Source: Mesoterricola sediminis (lineage in GTDB: Bacteria; Acidobacteriota; Holophagae; Holophagales; Holophagaceae). From it: a stretch of DNA of 64,000 nt. Both the position numbers and the translations under genes were made by a program. Shown one piece after another: positions 923-8,351 of this stretch. The stretch covers positions 868,001 through 932,000 of the forward strand of contig NZ_AP027081.1 of NCBI RefSeq assembly GCF_030295425.1, in the 5' to 3' direction. Positions within the stretch are counted from its first letter, which is position 1. Every line of letters starts with the position of its first letter. Below the pieces are notes generated by a model. The model ran no database searches, was not told the DNA's origin, and saw nothing but the letters and a program-made list of their open reading frames with translations.

Positions 923-1762
923 TCAGGGGAGGCCCGGGTCCGCGTCGGGGCCGCGGGGGAGGCGGGTGGCGTCGGTGAAGCCGGCCAGGGCGCCCCAGGC
1001 CCGGAGCTCGGCGAGGAAGGCGAGGGCCGCGGGGCCGTCCCGGAGGCCCAGGGCGGCCACCACCTCGCCGATGGGCTCGTTCTGGGCCCGCACGAGGAGG
1101 GCGGTGGCCCCCTCCGTGAGCTCCCGCCAGCGGACCGCGCCGTCGGGGCCGCGGGCCGCCACGAGGCGGCAGGCCCCCGGCGGGGGCTCGGGCCGGTCCA
1201 GGGTGGCCTCCAGCACCCGGTGGGCGTAGGCGAGCACCTGGGTGGCGGGGGCGAGGACGGCCACGTCGCCGGGACCGGGCGCCGGGCGGAGGTGCCCGGG
1301 CAGGGGCCCGTCGGGGCCGTGCTCCACCAGGAGCTTCACCAGTTCCGAATGGGCGAGCTCCAGCAGGGCGGGCCACCGGTCCTGGCCCCAGCCGGAGGCG
1401 GCGAGCCAGCCCAGGAAGGTGGCCGCCAGGTCCCGGTGGAAGGGCCGGACGCAGCTGCGGGAGGCGAGGAAGGCGGACCGGCATGCCTCCAGGGCCCCGT
1501 CCCGGGCCAGCAGGGCCAGGGTGAGGGGGTAGGCGTCCTCCAGGGGCTCCCAGAGGGCCGCCCGCACCCCGTCCCGGTAGAAGAGGAGGCGGGCCTTGAA
1601 GCGGTGGAAGGCCTCCCGGTCCGCCCGGGGCAGGCCCCGGGCCGCGGCGAAGGCCCGGGGATCGGCCTCGAAGGCGGCCGTGTCCGGGTCCAGGGCCAGG
1701 TCCGCCAGGGCCCGCTGCAGGGCGAGGACGGGGTCAGGCGGTGGCGGCGAGGGCCTGGTCAT
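923..1762 (-). CDS. DUF2063 family protein, BufC/HvfC-like partner of the MNIO enzyme
   Basis: Putative RiPP-recognition partner of the DUF692 enzyme encoded just upstream; DUF2063 proteins accompany MNIO enzymes in bufferin-type loci and are thought to present the precursor peptide. The protein is 279 aa. An N-terminal helical region (about 10-100) with FHRFKARLLFYRDGV and an EDAYPLTLALL stretch resembles the DUF2063 domain, and WPALLELAHSEL lies near the middle. The C-terminal half (about 190-270) looks like a small winged-helix-type domain. The start chosen is the ATG at 1762, which overlaps the end of the MNIO gene by 29 nt and gives translational coupling. The track-length frame upstream of this Met has no family similarity. 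Family assignment is fairly secure; exact role is inferred from neighbours. Confidence 0.8.
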   Translation of the reverse strand: MTRPSPPPPDPVLALQRALADLALDPDTAAFEADPRAFAAARGLPRADREAFHRFKARLLFYRDGVRAALWEPLEDAYPLTLALLARDGALEACRSAFLASRSCVRPFHRDLAATFLGWLAASGWGQDRWPALLELAHSELVKLLVEHGPDGPLPGHLRPAPGPGDVAVLAPATQVLAYAHRVLEATLDRPEPPPGACRLVAARGPDGAVRWRELTEGATALLVRAQNEPIGEVVAALGLRDGPAALAFLAELRAWGALAGFTDATRLPRGPDADPGLP

Positions 1763-2570
1763 AGGCCTCCTGCAGGCGGGCCCGCTCCGCCAGGAGCTCG
1801 GGCAGCGGGGGGATGTGGTTGTCCCGCTCCAGCAGGACGGGGACGGGGCGCCCGATGCGGGCCAAGGCAAAGGCCATGAGGTCCACCACCGGCAGGGGGA
1901 CCGGGGCGCCGTGGGTGTCCACCACGAGGCCCTCCCAGGTGTGGTGGCCGGCCACGTGCATCTGGGCGACCCGGTCCAGGGGCATGGCCTCCAGCCAGCG
2001 GAAGGGGTCGAACCCGAAGTTGAGGGCGTTGACGTAGACGTTGTTCACGTCCAGGAGCCAGCCCACGTCGGCCCCCTCCAGCACCTCGGCCAGGAACTGG
2101 GCCTCCGTCAGGTCGGCGTGGCCCAGCTCGCCGTAATAGGTGATGTTCTCCAGGAGGAGGGGCACGGGGAGGGCCGCCCGCAGGGCCCGGGACCGGGCGG
2201 CGGCGTGGCGGGCCGAGTCGCGGGTGAAGGGCATGGGCAGGAGGTCCAGGGTGGTGGCGCCGTCCACGGCGGTGAAGCAGAGGTGCTCCGAGTGCCAGGG
2301 GCTGCCCGTGGCCTCCAGGAAGGCGCCCAGCTGGTCCAGGTAGGTCCCGTCCAGGGGATCGAAGCCGCCCACGCCCAGGGAGAGGCCGTGGGAGATCACG
2401 GGGCGGCGGGCCAGGGCCCGCCGGATCAGGTCCGCCTCGGCGCCGCCGCCGCCGATCACGTTCTCCGGGGCGATCTCCCAGAAGGGCACGTCCAGGTCCC
2501 GGGCGGCGGCCTCCCCCAGGAAGGGGAGGCGCAGCCCGAGGCCGACGCCGGTCGGCGCCTCGCCGTTCAT
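1734..2570 (-). CDS. Multinuclear non-heme iron oxidative enzyme (MNIO, DUF692), BufB-like
   Basis: A TIM-barrel metalloenzyme of the DUF692/MNIO family (MbnB, TglH, BufB), which uses two or three iron ions to oxidise cysteine residues of ribosomal peptides. The 278-aa protein has the usual family length and metal-ligand motifs: SHGLSL (His61), WHSEHLCF (His93, Glu95, His96), LLLENITYY (Glu141), LLDVNNVYVNALNFG (Asp174), MHVAGHH (His205, His209), VDTHG (Asp218, His220) and LLERDNHIP (Glu248). The start ATG at 2570 overlaps the stop of the precursor gene as ATGA, and its own end overlaps the DUF2063 start by 29 nt. The three genes therefore form one cassette. Substrate is almost certainly the Cys-repeat peptide upstream; the product chemistry cannot be read from sequence. 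Confidence 0.92.
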   Translation of the reverse strand: MNGEAPTGVGLGLRLPFLGEAAARDLDVPFWEIAPENVIGGGGAEADLIRRALARRPVISHGLSLGVGGFDPLDGTYLDQLGAFLEATGSPWHSEHLCFTAVDGATTLDLLPMPFTRDSARHAAARSRALRAALPVPLLLENITYYGELGHADLTEAQFLAEVLEGADVGWLLDVNNVYVNALNFGFDPFRWLEAMPLDRVAQMHVAGHHTWEGLVVDTHGAPVPLPVVDLMAFALARIGRPVPVLLERDNHIPPLPELLAERARLQEAYDQALAATA

Positions 2571-2827
2571 GCGCCGTTCCGGGCGCAGGACCGCCCGCAC
2601 CGGTGCCCGCAGCGCGGGGCGGTGGCGCACCGGCGCCCGCAGCGGGGGAAGGTGGCGCAGCGGCGTCCGCAGCGGGGCCGCACGGCGCAGGTGCGGCCGC
2701 AGTGGGCCGCCAGGGTGTCCGGGGCCTTGGCCGCGGGCGTGATGTCCCGGGCGCCCAGATCGGGGTTGACGGGGAGGGTGGAGCCGGCGGCGAAGAGGGC
2801 CGCCGCGCCGAGAAGCTGGGTGATCAT
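2567..2827 (-). CDS. Exported Cys/Arg-rich repeat peptide, probable MNIO-modified RiPP precursor
   Basis: A small protein of 86 aa. Residues 1-20 (MITQLLGAAALFAAGSTLP) look like a short Sec signal or leader. Residues 43-86 hold nine cysteines (43, 47, 53, 57, 63, 67, 73, 77, 81) in tandem decapeptides: CGRTCAVRPR, CGRRCATFPR, CGRRCATAPR, then a degenerate CGHRCGRSC. Every pair is CxxxC with a five-residue spacer. The core is strongly basic (12 Arg). The ATG at 2827 has a GGAG ribosome site six bases upstream; the stop overlaps the MNIO start (ATGA). Exported Cys-rich precursors followed by MNIO and DUF2063 genes are the arrangement of bufferins, proposed copper-handling RiPPs, but I see no DUF2282-like or EGKC repeat sequence, so this looks like a different precursor type. 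Modification and metal binding are inferred. Confidence 0.8.
   Translation of the reverse strand: MITQLLGAAALFAAGSTLPVNPDLGARDITPAAKAPDTLAAHCGRTCAVRPRCGRRCATFPRCGRRCATAPRCGHRCGRSCARNGA
2585..2701 (-). repeat. Tandem 30-bp repeats encoding CxxxC decapeptides
   Basis: Within the precursor gene, about three and a half copies of a 30-bp unit (shared core on the plus strand: gtggcgca, cggcg, ccgcagcgggg) encode the CGRRCATxPR decapeptides. The two inner copies differ at only a few bases, which suggests recent duplication or homogenisation. Confidence 0.75.
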
Positions 2828-2854: not shown

Positions 2855-2981
2855 CCGGCCTCTGGGAGGCCGGAAGGACGGGCAGGAAGGGGATGCTGGG
2901 GCCGGCACAGGGGACGGGGCTGGGTCCAAGGCGGGTGCGCCGGGCGCTCCCAACTCTTCGGTCCCGCCCCTCCGGGACTGA
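2855..2981. other. Two hairpins in the leader of the RiPP cassette
   Basis: Between the preceding terminator and the precursor start there are two inverted repeats: 2855-2861 with 2867-2873 (7 bp, loop of 5) and 2958-2966 with 2973-2981 (9 bp with one wobble, loop of 6). They could form structures in the 5' leader of the minus-strand cassette. I recognise no known riboswitch or metal-regulator site here. Confidence 0.3.
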
Positions 2982-3064: not shown

Positions 3065-3946
3065 TCACTTGCCCTGGACGGCCTTTTCGTCGGAGTCGGC
3101 CCGGGCCTGCACGGGCCAGTCGAGGACGGCCTGGTTCAGCCGCTCCCAGTTGGCCTTGAGGGGCACGCGCTCCGTGGTGAAGGCCATGCCCTTGGGCACG
3201 AGGCGGACCAGGTGGTCCGCGCCGGCCCGGTAGTAGGCGAGGCGGGTGCGCTGGCCCTTGCGGTTGGACTTGAACGCGAAGAGCCAGTGGCTGCGCGCGC
3301 CGGAGCCGGCGGACTTGAGGTCCTGGAGGTCCGCCGCCATGGTGGTGACGCCGTGGGCGCCGACGATCACCACGTGCCTGAAGCCGGGGCGGGTCCAGGC
3401 CAGCTGCTCCGTGCCGTTGCCGAGGAAGTCGCCCACCGCGGCCAGGAGGTCCCCGTCCACCTTGAGCTCCGTGTTGTCGGCCGGGATGCTGTCCTCGTGG
3501 GCGGGCGCCGTCCCTTCCGCGTGGCGCTCGGCCACGAAGCCCTGGACGGGCCGGCTGAGGCGGGCGCCGTTGGTGAGCAGGCCCCAGGCCTTGGTGCCCT
3601 CGGCGGCGTAGATCAGGTCGCTGAGGCCCGACCCGGTGAGGTCCACGGCGGCCACGAAGGTGCCGCCGTCCTCGCGGAGGTCCGGGAGGTCGGCGGAAGC
3701 GGCGGCGTCGGGGCCGGTGAAGACCGGCAGGTCGCGGGCGGCCGCGGCGCCGGGGCCCTCCACGCGGAGCTTGCCGGAGGCGAGCCCCGCGAGGCGCTGG
3801 AGGGGCGGGAGGGGATGGATGATGTCCTTCTTCTCGCCGCTCTCCTGCGGGGTGAAGACGCCGTAGGGCAGGGCGTGGGCGAGGGGGTCGGCCGACAGGG
3901 ACAGGCCCGCGGCCAGGGCCACGGGGGCCCAGTTGAAGCGATGCAT
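3065..3946 (-). CDS. Exported protein with FG-GAP/VCBS-like repeats, function unknown
   Basis: A 293-aa protein with a probable Sec signal peptide (residues 1-25, ending SADPLAHA). Two segments, VDLTGSGLSDLIYA and VGDFLGNGTEQLAW, resemble the Asp/Gly-rich loops of FG-GAP or VCBS repeats found in beta-propeller surface proteins, so a periplasmic or extracellular propeller is likely. No catalytic motif is visible. The ATG at 3946 is preferred over an upstream in-frame start because it has a GAGGAG ribosome site and begins the signal peptide. The gene is single, flanked by hairpin terminators. It sits directly upstream of the RiPP cassette but is separated from it by a terminator, so a functional link is only a possibility. 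Confidence 0.7.
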   Translation of the reverse strand: MHRFNWAPVALAAGLSLSADPLAHALPYGVFTPQESGEKKDIIHPLPPLQRLAGLASGKLRVEGPGAAAARDLPVFTGPDAAASADLPDLREDGGTFVAAVDLTGSGLSDLIYAAEGTKAWGLLTNGARLSRPVQGFVAERHAEGTAPAHEDSIPADNTELKVDGDLLAAVGDFLGNGTEQLAWTRPGFRHVVIVGAHGVTTMAADLQDLKSAGSGARSHWLFAFKSNRKGQRTRLAYYRAGADHLVRLVPKGMAFTTERVPLKANWERLNQAVLDWPVQARADSDEKAVQGK

Positions 3947-4048: not shown

Positions 4049-6124
4049 CTATTTGAGCTTCTGCTCCATGAAGTCGAACTGCAGGGCCAGGAAGTGGGCC
4101 GTCTGGCGGTTGTCGGCGCCTGAGCCGTGCCCGCCCTCGACGTTCTCGAAGTAAAGGACGTCATGGCCCATGTCCTTCATCTTGGCGAACATCTTCCGGG
4201 CGTGGGCCGGGTGCACCCGGTCGTCGCGGGTCGTGGTCATGAAGAGGGTGGGGGGATAGTGGCCGTCGGCCTTCACCAGGTGGTAGGGGGAGAAGGTCTG
4301 GACGAAGGCCCACTCCTCGGGCTTGTCCGGGTCGCCGTACTCGGCCATCCAGGAGGCGCCGGCCAGGAGGTGGCTGTAGCGCTTCATGTCCAGCAGGGGG
4401 ACCTGGCAGACCACGGCGCCGAAGAGCCCCGGGTACTGGGTCAGCATGTTGCCGACCAGGAGCCCGCCGTTGCTGCCGCCGCGGACGCCCAGGTGCTTCG
4501 GCGCGGTGACGCCGCGCTTGACGAGGTCCTCGGCCACCGCGGCCAGGTCCTCATAGGCCTTGTGGCGGTTGGCCTTGAGGGCGGCCTGGTGCCAGCGGGG
4601 GCCGTACTCGCCGCCGCCGCGGATGTTGGCCAGCACGTAGACGTAGCCCTTGGAGAGCCAGGCGCGGCCGAGGGGCGCGTTGTAGCCGGGGATCTGGGAG
4701 ACCTCGAAACCGCCGTAGGCGTAGAGGTGGGTGGGGTGGGAGCCGTCGAGCTTCATGCCCTTGGGGGCCACCATGAAGTAGGGGACCCGGGTGCCGTCCT
4801 TGGAGACCGCGAAGTGCTGGGTGGTCTCCAGCTTCGAGGCGTCGAAGAGGGCGGGCAGGGCCTTCAGGCGCTCGGGGGCCTTGCCGGCCGCCACGAGGCT
4901 GAGGGTGGTGGGCGTCTGGAAATCGGAGGTCACGAGCCAGCAGTCGTCGCTGGTGTCCGCGTCCACGGGGCGGAGGGCGAGGGTGCCGATGGCCGGCGCC
5001 CAGGTCAGGGGCTTGCGGGTCCAGCCGTCCTTGCCGTGGCGCACCTCGACGAGGCGGTTCTTGACGTCCTCGTTCAGGTGGAGGATGGCGCGGTGGCGGG
5101 TCCAGGCGACGCCGGCGAGGCTGGAGGCGGGGGTGGGCTCGAAGAGGACGTCGAAGGTCCGTTCGCCCTTCAGGAAGGCGTCGGCCTTGATGACCAGGAG
5201 GCTGCCGCCCGCGTAGGTGTGGCCCCCGACCGTCCAGGCGGTGCGGGGCTGGACCACGAACCACTCCCGGTGGAAGCCGGCGTGGGCGTCGGCGGGGACG
5301 TCCAGCTTCGTGCGGCTGCCGTCCTTGTTCAGGAGGAAGTATTCGTTGGTGAAGAAGGTGGGGGTGCGGATGAGGAGGTCCCGCTCGAAGCCGGGGGTGT
5401 CATCGTGGTTGGCCGAGGCCGACATGTCCGTCTCGAGGCCCTCGAACACGACCTCGGCGGAGGCGAGGGGGGTGCCCCGCTTCCAGCGCCGGGCCTGGCG
5501 GGCGTAGCCGGAGGTGGTGAGGGTGCCCTTGCCGAAATCGGTGCCGACGAAGAGGGTGTTCGCGTCCACCCAGTCCACGTTGGTCTTGGCGAGGGGCGTC
5601 TGGAAGCCGCCCTTCACGAAGGCCTTGGCCTCCACGTCGAACTCCCGCACCTCCACGGCGTCGGAACCGCCGGGGGAGAGGCTGACGAGGCACAGGCGGG
5701 CCTGGGGCCGGAGGAACTGGGCGCCCTTGAACACCCAGCCCTTCTTCTCGGCTTTGCCGAGGGCGTCGATGTCCAGGACGGTCTCCCAGCGGGGCTCCGC
5801 CTTGCGGTACTCGGCGAGGGTCGTGCGGCGCCAGAGGCCGCGGGGATGGTCGGCGTCCTGCCAGAGGTTGTAGAAGTAGTTGCCGGCCTTGGTGACCATG
5901 GGGATCCGGGCCTTGGAATCCAGGATCTTCAGGAGGTCCGCCTCGAGGGCCTTGTACTCGGCGGTGCCCTCCAGCTTGGCGGAAGTCTGGGCGTTCGCCT
6001 CCTTGACCCAGGCCAGGGACTTCTCGCCCATGACGTCCTCGAGCCATTGGTATTTGTCGTCCTGGGCATGCAGGGTGGTCACGAGGGACACACCCAGGAG
6101 GAGGTTGGTGAGGGTCGATGGCAT
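4049..6124 (-). CDS. Prolyl oligopeptidase family serine peptidase (S9A), exported
   Basis: Cleaves short peptides after proline; the N-terminal signal peptide (residues 1-20, ending TTLHA) indicates a periplasmic enzyme. The protein is 691 aa, normal for the S9A family. Residues about 25-400 form the beta-propeller half, beginning with the family's KYQWLEDV block. The C-terminal alpha/beta-hydrolase half carries the nucleophile Ser551 in GGSNGG, the acid Asp634/635 in RDDRVHP, and His666 in EGGHGSG, in the expected order. The start ATG is preceded by a strong AGGAGG site at a six-base spacing. It is transcribed alone and ends at a hairpin. Exact substrate preference is not predictable; the family assignment is secure. 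Confidence 0.95.
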   Translation of the reverse strand: MPSTLTNLLLGVSLVTTLHAQDDKYQWLEDVMGEKSLAWVKEANAQTSAKLEGTAEYKALEADLLKILDSKARIPMVTKAGNYFYNLWQDADHPRGLWRRTTLAEYRKAEPRWETVLDIDALGKAEKKGWVFKGAQFLRPQARLCLVSLSPGGSDAVEVREFDVEAKAFVKGGFQTPLAKTNVDWVDANTLFVGTDFGKGTLTTSGYARQARRWKRGTPLASAEVVFEGLETDMSASANHDDTPGFERDLLIRTPTFFTNEYFLLNKDGSRTKLDVPADAHAGFHREWFVVQPRTAWTVGGHTYAGGSLLVIKADAFLKGERTFDVLFEPTPASSLAGVAWTRHRAILHLNEDVKNRLVEVRHGKDGWTRKPLTWAPAIGTLALRPVDADTSDDCWLVTSDFQTPTTLSLVAAGKAPERLKALPALFDASKLETTQHFAVSKDGTRVPYFMVAPKGMKLDGSHPTHLYAYGGFEVSQIPGYNAPLGRAWLSKGYVYVLANIRGGGEYGPRWHQAALKANRHKAYEDLAAVAEDLVKRGVTAPKHLGVRGGSNGGLLVGNMLTQYPGLFGAVVCQVPLLDMKRYSHLLAGASWMAEYGDPDKPEEWAFVQTFSPYHLVKADGHYPPTLFMTTTRDDRVHPAHARKMFAKMKDMGHDVLYFENVEGGHGSGADNRQTAHFLALQFDFMEQKLK

Positions 6125-6203: not shown

Positions 6204-8351
6204 TCATCGGTCCTTGGCCTCGGTTGGGGCGGCCGGGTAGCGGGGCAGGCTCCAGACGGGGTAGAAGGTCACCACGTGCCGGTCGGCGGGGTCGTACACG
6301 CAGAGGGCGCTGCGGGTCTCGACCCGCTGGCCCGTGCATGCGTCCACCACATGTCCGATCGGCGCGTCGAAGGTCCGGCCGAAGAGCTTCCGGCCCTGGA
6401 AACTGTCCAGGACGTGGCTGGCCTGGGTCATGGCCTCGGCGGCTCGCTCCGCGATCCAGGCCCGGGTGGCGCCCTTGGGGAACCAGCCCCGGGTGGGGTC
6501 GGCGCCGTGGGCGTGGCCCTGGAGGATGTGGTCCAGGCCGATGGTGCCGTAGGGGGCCGGACGGGAGGTCTTCTCCTCCGCGGCGGGCTGGGCCGGGGTG
6601 GGCGGAGGCTTCGGTGGGTTGATGGCCGGGGTGGCCTGGGCGCGGGCGGGCTTCTCCGCCTTCCGGGCGGCGGCTTCCTCGGCCAGCAGGCGGAGGTGGA
6701 CCGACAGGAGGCTGTTCCGGCCCGCGAGCCGGAGGACGAACACGTCCGGTCCCGCTTCGACGATCTCCACGGGCTGGCTGCCCTCGTCCAGGGCCCACCA
6801 CTGGGCGTCGTTGCCGTCCAGGCGCCCGAGGCCCGAGGGGCGGGAGGTGCAGAAGGCGAGGGTGCCATCCTGGCAGCAGGCCAGGCCTGACACCACCTTG
6901 TCCGCCAGGGCCCGGGCGGGGAGGGGCACCAGCTCGCCTCCCCTCTTGCGCTTCCCGTGGGGGCGGCCCGGATGCAGGTGGTGCAGGACGCCCCCCTGGA
7001 GGACGACGAGGCGGCCGCCCTTGTCCTGGGCCAGGGCCGGCACCGGGCCCTCCGCCTTGAAGGGGCAGGCCTCGAGGGGGAGGCGCCGGGGGCCTTCCGT
7101 CCCCAGGACCACGAGCCCCCGGGTGGTGGCGGCCAGGCCGAACCGGGAGCTGCCCGGGGCGACGGGGCCCAGGGCGAGGACCCGCTCGCCGTCCTGGGCG
7201 GCGAAGATTCGCGCCGTGGCGAAGGTCCCGTTCTCCCGGGGCAGGGTCAGGTCGATGCCGCCGCCCCCTTCGCCGACGGTGAGGGTCTCCAGCCGCGACG
7301 CCGGCAGGCCCGGCCCGGCGACCCCGCCCTTGAGGGTCGCCACGGGGTTGGCGGCGCGGTTGGCCAGGGCGTCCCGTCCGCAGGAGAAGAGGATGCGGCC
7401 CGAGGCGGGCAGGGTGCACCAGAGGCCGTCGTCGTGGGGCCCCAGGGCGCCCACGGGCTCCGGGAAGGTGAAGATCCAGTAGCTCTCGGGGGCCATCTTG
7501 ACGAGGGTCTTCCGGTCCTCCATGAGGAGGCTGAGCAGGCTGGCGCCGGGGACGATCCCCAGGGGGCGGCCCCGGTCCAGGCCGTCCAGGGGGACCTCCG
7601 TGACGGGCACGGGCACCGTGCCCTTGGGGAGCTGGGCATACCAGCCCTCGCGCCCCACCTCCAGGCCCAGTTCGAGGGGGCCGGCGAGGACGAGGGTGCG
7701 CCCCGGGGGGGTCTTCGTGGGCTTGTCCGGCCGCAGGCGCAGGTCCAGCTTGCCCCCCGAGTGGACGGCCCCCTGGAAAAGGTTGGCGGGATCCTCCAGG
7801 GCGCCGGGGGGGAGCTGGGTGCCGACCAGGTGGGCCCCGTCGAAGCAGCAGCCGGTGAGGGTGCAGGCGCTCAGATCCACGCCGGCCAGGTCCGCGTTGG
7901 CGAAGGTGCAGCCGCTGAGGTCCCGGCCGGCCAGGGTCTGGCCCGGGAAGAAGAGGGCCTGGGCGAAATCCTGGTCCTTCACCAGATCCTGGAGGAAGAA
8001 GCCGCGCCCGTCCAGGCGCAGGCCCACGAGGGGGTTCGCCTCGGTGGCGGCTTTCTCGTCGGCCGATGACGGGCGGAGGGGCGCTTTCCGGGTGGCCCCG
8101 GCGGCCGCCGCCCGGTCCAGGGCCTGGACGTAGCCGAGGAGGGAGGCGTCGCCGGCGGCCTTGAGCTGGGCGGTCAGGGCGGCGAGTTCCTCGGCGGTGT
8201 GGTGGAGGGTGTTGATCCAGTGGACGGGCCCGGAGGCGCCCTGGAAGGTGAAGCCCGCGGCCACGAACACGAGGTCGGCGCGGAGGGCGGGGCCCGGCGC
8301 GGCGAGGGCCAGGGCCAGGACGAGGGGGGACAGGGAACGGCGGAGCGGCAT
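6204..8351 (-). CDS. Large exported protein: pentapeptide-like repeats, propeller-like centre, toxin-like C-terminus
   Basis: A 715-aa protein starting at ATG 8351 with a signal peptide (residues 1-25, ending PALRA). Around residues 135-180 are pentapeptide-repeat-like units (LSGCTFANADLAGVDLSAC). The middle (about 300-560) contains repeated short beta-rich segments such as GGRLVVLQGGVLHHL, consistent with a propeller. After an Ala/Pro/Lys-rich linker (about 565-605, ATPAINPPKPPPTPAQPAA), a compact tail begins DHILQGHAHGAD and ends VVTFYPVW. This tail has the H-x-x-x-G-H and late aromatic pattern seen in BECR-fold (EndoU/barnase-like) toxin domains, but the similarity is faint. I do not recognise the protein as a whole. 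It is followed on the same strand by the peptidase gene, 79 bases away. Confidence 0.6.
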   Translation of the reverse strand: MPLRRSLSPLVLALALAAPGPALRADLVFVAAGFTFQGASGPVHWINTLHHTAEELAALTAQLKAAGDASLLGYVQALDRAAAAGATRKAPLRPSSADEKAATEANPLVGLRLDGRGFFLQDLVKDQDFAQALFFPGQTLAGRDLSGCTFANADLAGVDLSACTLTGCCFDGAHLVGTQLPPGALEDPANLFQGAVHSGGKLDLRLRPDKPTKTPPGRTLVLAGPLELGLEVGREGWYAQLPKGTVPVPVTEVPLDGLDRGRPLGIVPGASLLSLLMEDRKTLVKMAPESYWIFTFPEPVGALGPHDDGLWCTLPASGRILFSCGRDALANRAANPVATLKGGVAGPGLPASRLETLTVGEGGGGIDLTLPRENGTFATARIFAAQDGERVLALGPVAPGSSRFGLAATTRGLVVLGTEGPRRLPLEACPFKAEGPVPALAQDKGGRLVVLQGGVLHHLHPGRPHGKRKRGGELVPLPARALADKVVSGLACCQDGTLAFCTSRPSGLGRLDGNDAQWWALDEGSQPVEIVEAGPDVFVLRLAGRNSLLSVHLRLLAEEAAARKAEKPARAQATPAINPPKPPPTPAQPAAEEKTSRPAPYGTIGLDHILQGHAHGADPTRGWFPKGATRAWIAERAAEAMTQASHVLDSFQGRKLFGRTFDAPIGHVVDACTGQRVETRSALCVYDPADRHVVTFYPVWSLPRYPAAPTEAKDR

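Follow-up and report, generated by a model that had tools for sequence, protein, structure and literature searches.

At 2567..2827 on the minus strand of a 64,000-nt stretch of Mesoterricola sediminis DNA, which as a whole we call the window, lies an open reading frame for an 86-residue peptide rich in Cys and Arg (MITQLLGAAALFAAGSTLPVNPDLGARDITPAAKAPDTLAAHCGRTCAVRPRCGRRCATFPRCGRRCATAPRCGHRCGRSCARNGA, read from 2827 to 2567). The question raised by this locus is whether the peptide is the precursor of a modified product, as the original prediction proposed, and, if so, which of its Cys are modified and by what chemistry. Among the papers on MNIO (DUF692) iron enzymes that our literature search returned, none mentions Holophagaceae or Mesoterricola.

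The precursor gene and its neighbourhood

The TGA of the precursor gene overlaps the ATG of a gene for an HvfB/BufB-like MNIO (DUF692; MbnB_TglH_ChrH) at 1734..2570 on the minus strand, which matches Pfam PF05114 with an E-value of 1.3e-82 and the NCBIfam HvfB family with 251.6 bits. The nearest solved structure by sequence is PDB 3BWW (E 1.2e-45), and a genome-wide search returned this MNIO as the single copy in the 4.5-Mb genome. Adjoining and overlapping the MNIO gene is a gene at 923..1762, also on the minus strand, for a PME1 (HvfC-like) partner with a DUF2063 domain and an NGO1945 C-terminal, RRE-type domain; it passed the cut-off for PF09836 (29.7 versus 27.2 bits), fell slightly below that for PF22106 (NGO1945_C; 24.5 versus 27 bits) and matched NCBIfam HvfC at 8.8e-17. 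An MNIO, an adjoining PME1 and a Cys-rich precursor just upstream, the features of captophorin-type clusters, are thus all present, in the usual A-B-C order and with overlapping genes, and the peptide can be taken as the precursor in an MNIO/PME1 RiPP cluster.

Genomes of five further species of the genus (G001-G005) were available for comparison, and the leader and repeat core of the precursor were found in four of them. Three copies are complete, those of the window (86 residues), G004 (94 residues) and G001 (93 residues), while in two draft genomes the contig ends inside the repeat, as is expected for tandem repeats. Among the three complete copies the core has a dN/dS of 0.26-0.32, with differences mostly at third codon positions, which points to purifying selection on the peptide. 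Residues 1-42 (2702..2827, minus strand; MITQLLGAAALFAAGSTLPV...) form a hydrophobic leader related to that of lysine-type precursors from Holophagaceae (MITKLIGAATLFAAGS), and on this likeness we regard it as a putative Sec signal and the peptide as probably exported. The window leader has no basic residue among its first 15, whereas G001 and G002 have Lys4. Just upstream of the ribosome-binding site is a hairpin, CCGGCCTC-CCA-GAGGCCGG (2855..2873, minus strand), and in four congeners this position is taken by another hairpin, GTGCGGC....GCCGCGC. The hairpin is little stronger than shuffled-sequence controls and is a putative element; an Rfam search gave no match.

A further gene upstream (3065..3946, minus strand) encodes a secreted, mostly beta protein and is kept near the precursor in five species. 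Of the six species of the genus, five have the block formed by this gene, the precursor, the MNIO and PME1, located between AccC and LysS wherever the congeneric contigs extend far enough; in G002 and G005 it is distributed over separate contigs, and no Arg-type MNIO could be retrieved from G002. The gene was found in six of 100 genomes, all of this genus, and its product contains the motifs DLTGSGLSDLI and DFLGNGTEQLA. AlphaFold models this product poorly (mean pLDDT 51), and its PDB matches are weak beta-propellers. We doubt that it is an obligate partner of the cluster, as G003, the one congener lacking the Arg-type cluster, has the gene alone, beside a MutS-like gene. G003 also carries, at locus L124 (C197), a divergent MNIO (45% identity); the putative precursor upstream of it (KHDCAGKNSCKGQGGCKSSDMGCKAKNSCKGKGGCKSS) is of another kind, with a Cys-Lys-type core. 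A prolyl oligopeptidase (4049-6124, minus strand) was considered as a Pro-Arg processing protease and rejected as lying outside the cluster, because in four congeners it is missing at that place and AccC flanks the upstream gene instead. A second secreted-type open reading frame (6204-8300, minus strand) lies between AccC and the cluster in the window species alone. No copper-linked genes (DoxX, sigma/anti-sigma) adjoin the cluster, and PADLOC gave no match.

Architecture of the repeat core

The repeat had been placed at 2585-2701, an interval whose exact ends, read on the minus strand, are the codons of Cys43 and Cys81. It comprises, as claimed, three decapeptide units, CGRTCAVRPR (2672..2701), CGRRCATFPR (2642..2671) and CGRRCATAPR (2612..2641), and nine Cys at spacings of 4, 6, 4, 6, 4, 6, 4 and 4, and runs on into a degenerate fourth unit with a C-terminal extension (CGHRCGRSCARNGA; 2570..2611, all on the minus strand). 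Tandem Repeats Finder reported a 30-nt array of 2.7-3.9 copies. When the core was shuffled 100,000 times using its own residues, none of the shuffles had all of the 4/6 spacings and none placed Gly or Ala after every Cys. Outside this locus, a search of the genome with the repeat returned nothing beyond short GC-rich matches, and a tblastn search of plasmids with the core gave two weak matches at chance level. Dispersed 30-nt tandem DNA repeats in genomes G029 and G006 (loci L133-L136) would translate to CGYGVASVPS, which resembles the CG..CASVPR unit of G004; we judged these to be unrelated tandem DNA repeats, probably non-coding minisatellites.

Other parts of the original description did not hold. 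The DNA repeats, said to be nearly identical, are just 63%, 70% and 83% identical between units, and many amino acids common to the units are encoded by different codons; given this divergence and the selection on the protein, expansion by recent duplication of near-identical DNA finds no support. The repeat is older than the species split, with both G001 and G004 having two 11-residue units (CGGRRCA..PR) and then two 10-residue units. These two complete homologues therefore contain both CxxxxC, in units 1-2, and CxxxC, so that the latter is not an invariant spacing. Arg does not sit on each side of most Cys: it precedes six of the nine, and Gly or Ala always follows. Nor could the description of Cys81 as odd be confirmed, as homologous cores likewise have nine Cys and end in ...PRCG. 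The window tail aligns with a gap to RCGHRCASVPRCGGRG of G004 and, the alignment being ambiguous, is best read as unit 4 lacking about six residues (CASVPR) plus a short extension that contains Cys81. Repeat number, which it had been suggested should be compared among relatives, does vary (three units and a tail versus four units and a terminal CG), and spacing is kept in part, so a constant number with no conservation of spacing is not what the congeneric homologues show.

On the evidence of these sequences, what is kept is Gly or Ala after each Cys together with alternating GRRCA and xPRCG sites. The nine window pentamers are AAHCG, GRTCA, RPRCG, GRRCA, FPRCG, GRRCA, APRCG, GHRCG and GRSCA, none of them EGKCG, and the residues after successive Cys are G, A, G, A, G, A, G, G and A. 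The GRRCA context appears with the variants GRTCA, GHRCA and GRSCA. G001 and G004 show strict G/A alternation over all nine Cys, from which the window core departs at its C-terminus only.

Lysine-type relatives and changes in the enzyme

With the MNIO as query, a scan of 84,980 species genomes yielded 80 loci. About half are from Holophagaceae of the Acidobacteriota (Geothrix and uncultured members), the others mostly from Nitrosomonas, Chromatiaceae and Alteromonadales. Almost all carry a lysine-type precursor, that of Pseudomonadota having EGKCG repeats and that of Holophagaceae a KDGSCGKGSCGSKD-like core. Among the 504 Cys pentamers of the 80 lysine-type precursors, Pro does not occur, Arg occurs four times and Gly follows the Cys in 492, whereas the Arg-type cores contain no Lys and 12-14 Arg (12 in the window). 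Separate lysine-type MNIO clusters are also present in G001, G002, G004 and G005, with an all-lysine core read in three of the four and that of G005 masked; since the two types share genomes, the Arg core is not an effect of GC content or base composition. Judged from sequence, the whole is a genus-restricted Arg/Pro version of the known Lys/Gly repeat design. Two MNIO-PME1 pairs, L122 (G004, at about 0.53 Mb) and L074 (Geothrix fermentans, NZ_KE386810.1), are preceded by a radical SAM/SPASM-like protein with no Cys-rich precursor directly upstream, and their MNIOs are long-branched sisters. They possibly represent a different MNIO pathway lacking an obvious substrate gene and, the upstream frame being radical SAM-like and no precursor, were dropped from the Arg-type enzymes in the comparison below.

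The Arg-type MNIOs (window, G001, G004 and G005) form one clade within Holophagaceae with support of 100/98, flanked on both sides in the tree by lysine-type enzymes, for which reason the lysine-type core looks ancestral; the tree has a long window branch and leaves the exact sister group of the clade uncertain. His61, His96, Glu141, Asp174, His205, Asp218, His220, Glu248 and Asp250, which we take to form the metal site, are at least 97% conserved among 92 enzymes, and the conserved catalytic residues of the window MNIO, including Asp250 (Asp249 of FonB, the fontiphorin enzyme), are intact. Arg-type enzymes depart from residues kept in at least 90% of other MNIOs at positions 15, 119 and 131 only. 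At position 15 they have Leu or Pro, whereas 83 of the 85 others have Arg or Lys and the remaining two, both lysine-type, have Gly and Ser. The Leu15 codon (2526..2528, minus strand) corresponds to Arg16 of FonB, the second Arg of an "LRR" motif, a match that relies on residue numbering and on the GLGLRR motif common to both, as the alignment itself did not include FonB. Phe250 of FonB is replaced by Asn in the Arg-type clade, and is no marker of it, as most Holophagaceae MNIOs likewise have Asn.

In fontiphorin biosynthesis, Arg15 and Arg16 of FonB flank the substrate Glu; Arg15 bars Arg at substrate position 1, while a productive contact with the Glu has been proposed for Arg16 (PMC12668002, PMC13097082). 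The Arg-type cores lack this Glu at nearly every site, with one EGLCG in G001. This suggests that the Arg/Pro core and the lost second Arg are matched, although, as the clade of four enzymes represents a single evolutionary event, the match is suggestive and no proof.

Proposed chemistry and comparison with known systems

Characterized MNIO-PME1 systems convert Cys to 5-thiooxazole (-4 Da), over many repeats, and their products bind copper (PMC12668002; PMC12452194); a Microbulbifer peptide is related to these products (PMC12538549). For the FonBC pair, a single-position series found Gly and Ala to be the only residues tolerated after Cys, and Pro anywhere in the pentamer or Arg at position 1 to be rejected (PMC12668002). 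With all of the genetic parts present and Gly or Ala after each Cys, thiooxazole chemistry is the best-supported reading of the window cluster, and we put the probability that it makes a captophorin/oxazolin-like RiPP, with a core switched from Lys/Gly/Ser to Arg/Pro, at roughly 0.7. The RRE domain of PME1 would bind the leader, and the MNIO would oxidize Cys to 5-thiooxazole in iterative fashion from repeat to repeat, the Gly or Ala after each Cys favouring the reaction. Loss of the residue equivalent to FonB Arg16 may fit the enzyme to an Arg-rich substrate, as the published partner of that Arg is the missing Glu. Exported by Sec, the peptide could then buffer the periplasm against stress by chelating a thiophilic metal, of which copper is our best guess by analogy. 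Counting against this explanation, the window pentamers include Pro and Arg at position 1, both rejected by FonBC, and the second Arg is also lost in the two lysine-type relatives with Gly and Ser. The start of the window leader, devoid of basic residues, and the lack of adjoining copper-linked genes weigh against it as well.

The original prediction had one enzyme installing the same modification several times. Repeated modification by one enzyme is established for fontiphorin, oxazolin and gonophorin (PMC12668002/PMC13097082), but the repeat here is not uniform, and as only one of its two alternating Cys contexts fits the published enzyme rules, it is in question whether all Cys are modified alike. 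By analogy, the Cys in GR(R/T/S)CA are the likeliest modified sites; those in PRCG would be either modified by an enzyme with relaxed rules or left as thiols. A refinement of the captophorin-like explanation, and no exclusive alternative to it, is that only the former become thiooxazoles and the latter stay free thiols or disulfides, each decapeptide then offering one heterocycle and one thiolate in a mixed metal site. The two contexts alternate in three species, Pro is absent from all 504 lysine-type pentamers and not tolerated by FonBC (PMC12668002), and in bufferin 1 modification is confined to the central Cys, the outer ones being joined in a disulfide (PMC12452194). The window MNIO is unlike FonB and may accept Pro, however, and the alternation could stem from duplication of units, so we advance this division of the Cys tentatively, with the odds against it. 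Its combination with an MNIO retuned by loss of the second substrate-contact Arg, together producing a cationic mixed-ligand metal peptide that would differ from known EGKCG, Cys-Lys and DUF2282 products, is put at slightly lower odds.

The dense Cys, in closely spaced pairs that could bind metal directly, would also suit a metallothionein-like Cys/Arg peptide that is little modified or unmodified, the MNIO acting on something else; we consider this unlikely given the overlap with the MNIO gene, the A-B-C order kept in the genus, a leader common to other MNIO-linked precursors and a genome without a second MNIO. A secreted antimicrobial or signalling peptide, the former also having been predicted, would agree with a strongly cationic core of 12 Arg and no Lys, yet exporter, protease, immunity and regulatory genes are absent from the conserved cluster and the nearest characterized relatives serve copper protection (PMC12668002, PMC12452194), making this role improbable and its antimicrobial form unsupported. 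That the region is a non-coding 30-nt minisatellite, its frame open by chance in DNA of 78% GC with other frames also open, is scarcely credible when frame, leader and cluster position are the same in five species and the core is under the selection described above. Equally hard to credit is a Cys-Xaa-Xaa-Xaa target of a radical SAM enzyme, as the match to NCBIfam TIGR04117 (15.6 bits, E 0.013) lies far under the 50-bit cut-off and the conserved cluster has no radical SAM gene.

If the captophorin-like reading is right, the locus bears on how thiooxazole-forming MNIOs choose their Cys, the published account of which comes from mutation of one enzyme, FonB, and an EGKCG peptide. Here nature has apparently performed the matching experiment, pairing an Arg/Pro-rich core with loss of the Arg proposed to touch the substrate Glu, whereas in sister clusters of these genomes the core is still of the lysine type and both Arg are retained; substrate-enzyme specificity thereby becomes directly testable by swaps of cores and of one residue. 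It would also show how far the sequences of this copper-peptide class can drift, which matters for genome discovery because searches for Lys-Cys, Cys-Lys or DUF2282 motifs might miss the Arg type.

Among known systems, methanobactin (MbnABC) shares the MNIO fold and Cys heterocycle chemistry, but the window MNIO matches MbnB very weakly (18.7 bits against a cut-off of 325), a DUF2063 protein takes the place of MbnC and the leader is probably a signal. The window MNIO and PME1 are related to BufB and BufC of the bufferins Buf1 (DUF2282) and Buf2 (6/12 Cys), from which the precursor differs in its nine Cys and repeat core; it had no Pfam match to DUF2282 up to an E-value of 1. The CxxxxC family (Antoine et al. 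2025, PMC12452194) is alike in MNIO and PME1, and also in signal peptide should the putative one here be real; two CGGRRC (CxxxxC) units are present in the congeneric homologues, whereas the window peptide has CxxxC and no Lactamase_B_2 neighbour was seen at its cluster. The lysine-type systems of Holophagaceae and Geothrix have a homologous leader and supply the closest non-Arg MNIOs (about 60-69% identity; PME1 41-50%), but their cores are all-lysine without Arg, their MNIOs keep the LRR and their neighbourhoods differ. The oxazolin, fontiphorin and gonophorin systems (HvfABC, FonABC and NgoABC), captophorins of the Lys-Cys, EGKCG kind, show the same precursor-MNIO-PME1 order with HvfB- and HvfC-like proteins, and likewise short repeats, a small residue after each Cys and a probable Sec leader. 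In contrast, the Arg-type cores lack the EGKCG motif, contain 12-14 Arg and no Lys, and alternate GRRCA and xPRCG sites with Pro, and their enzymes replace FonB Arg16 with Leu or Pro and Phe250 with Asn. By the way it would work, the window system may best be regarded as an analogue of captophorin and oxazolin.
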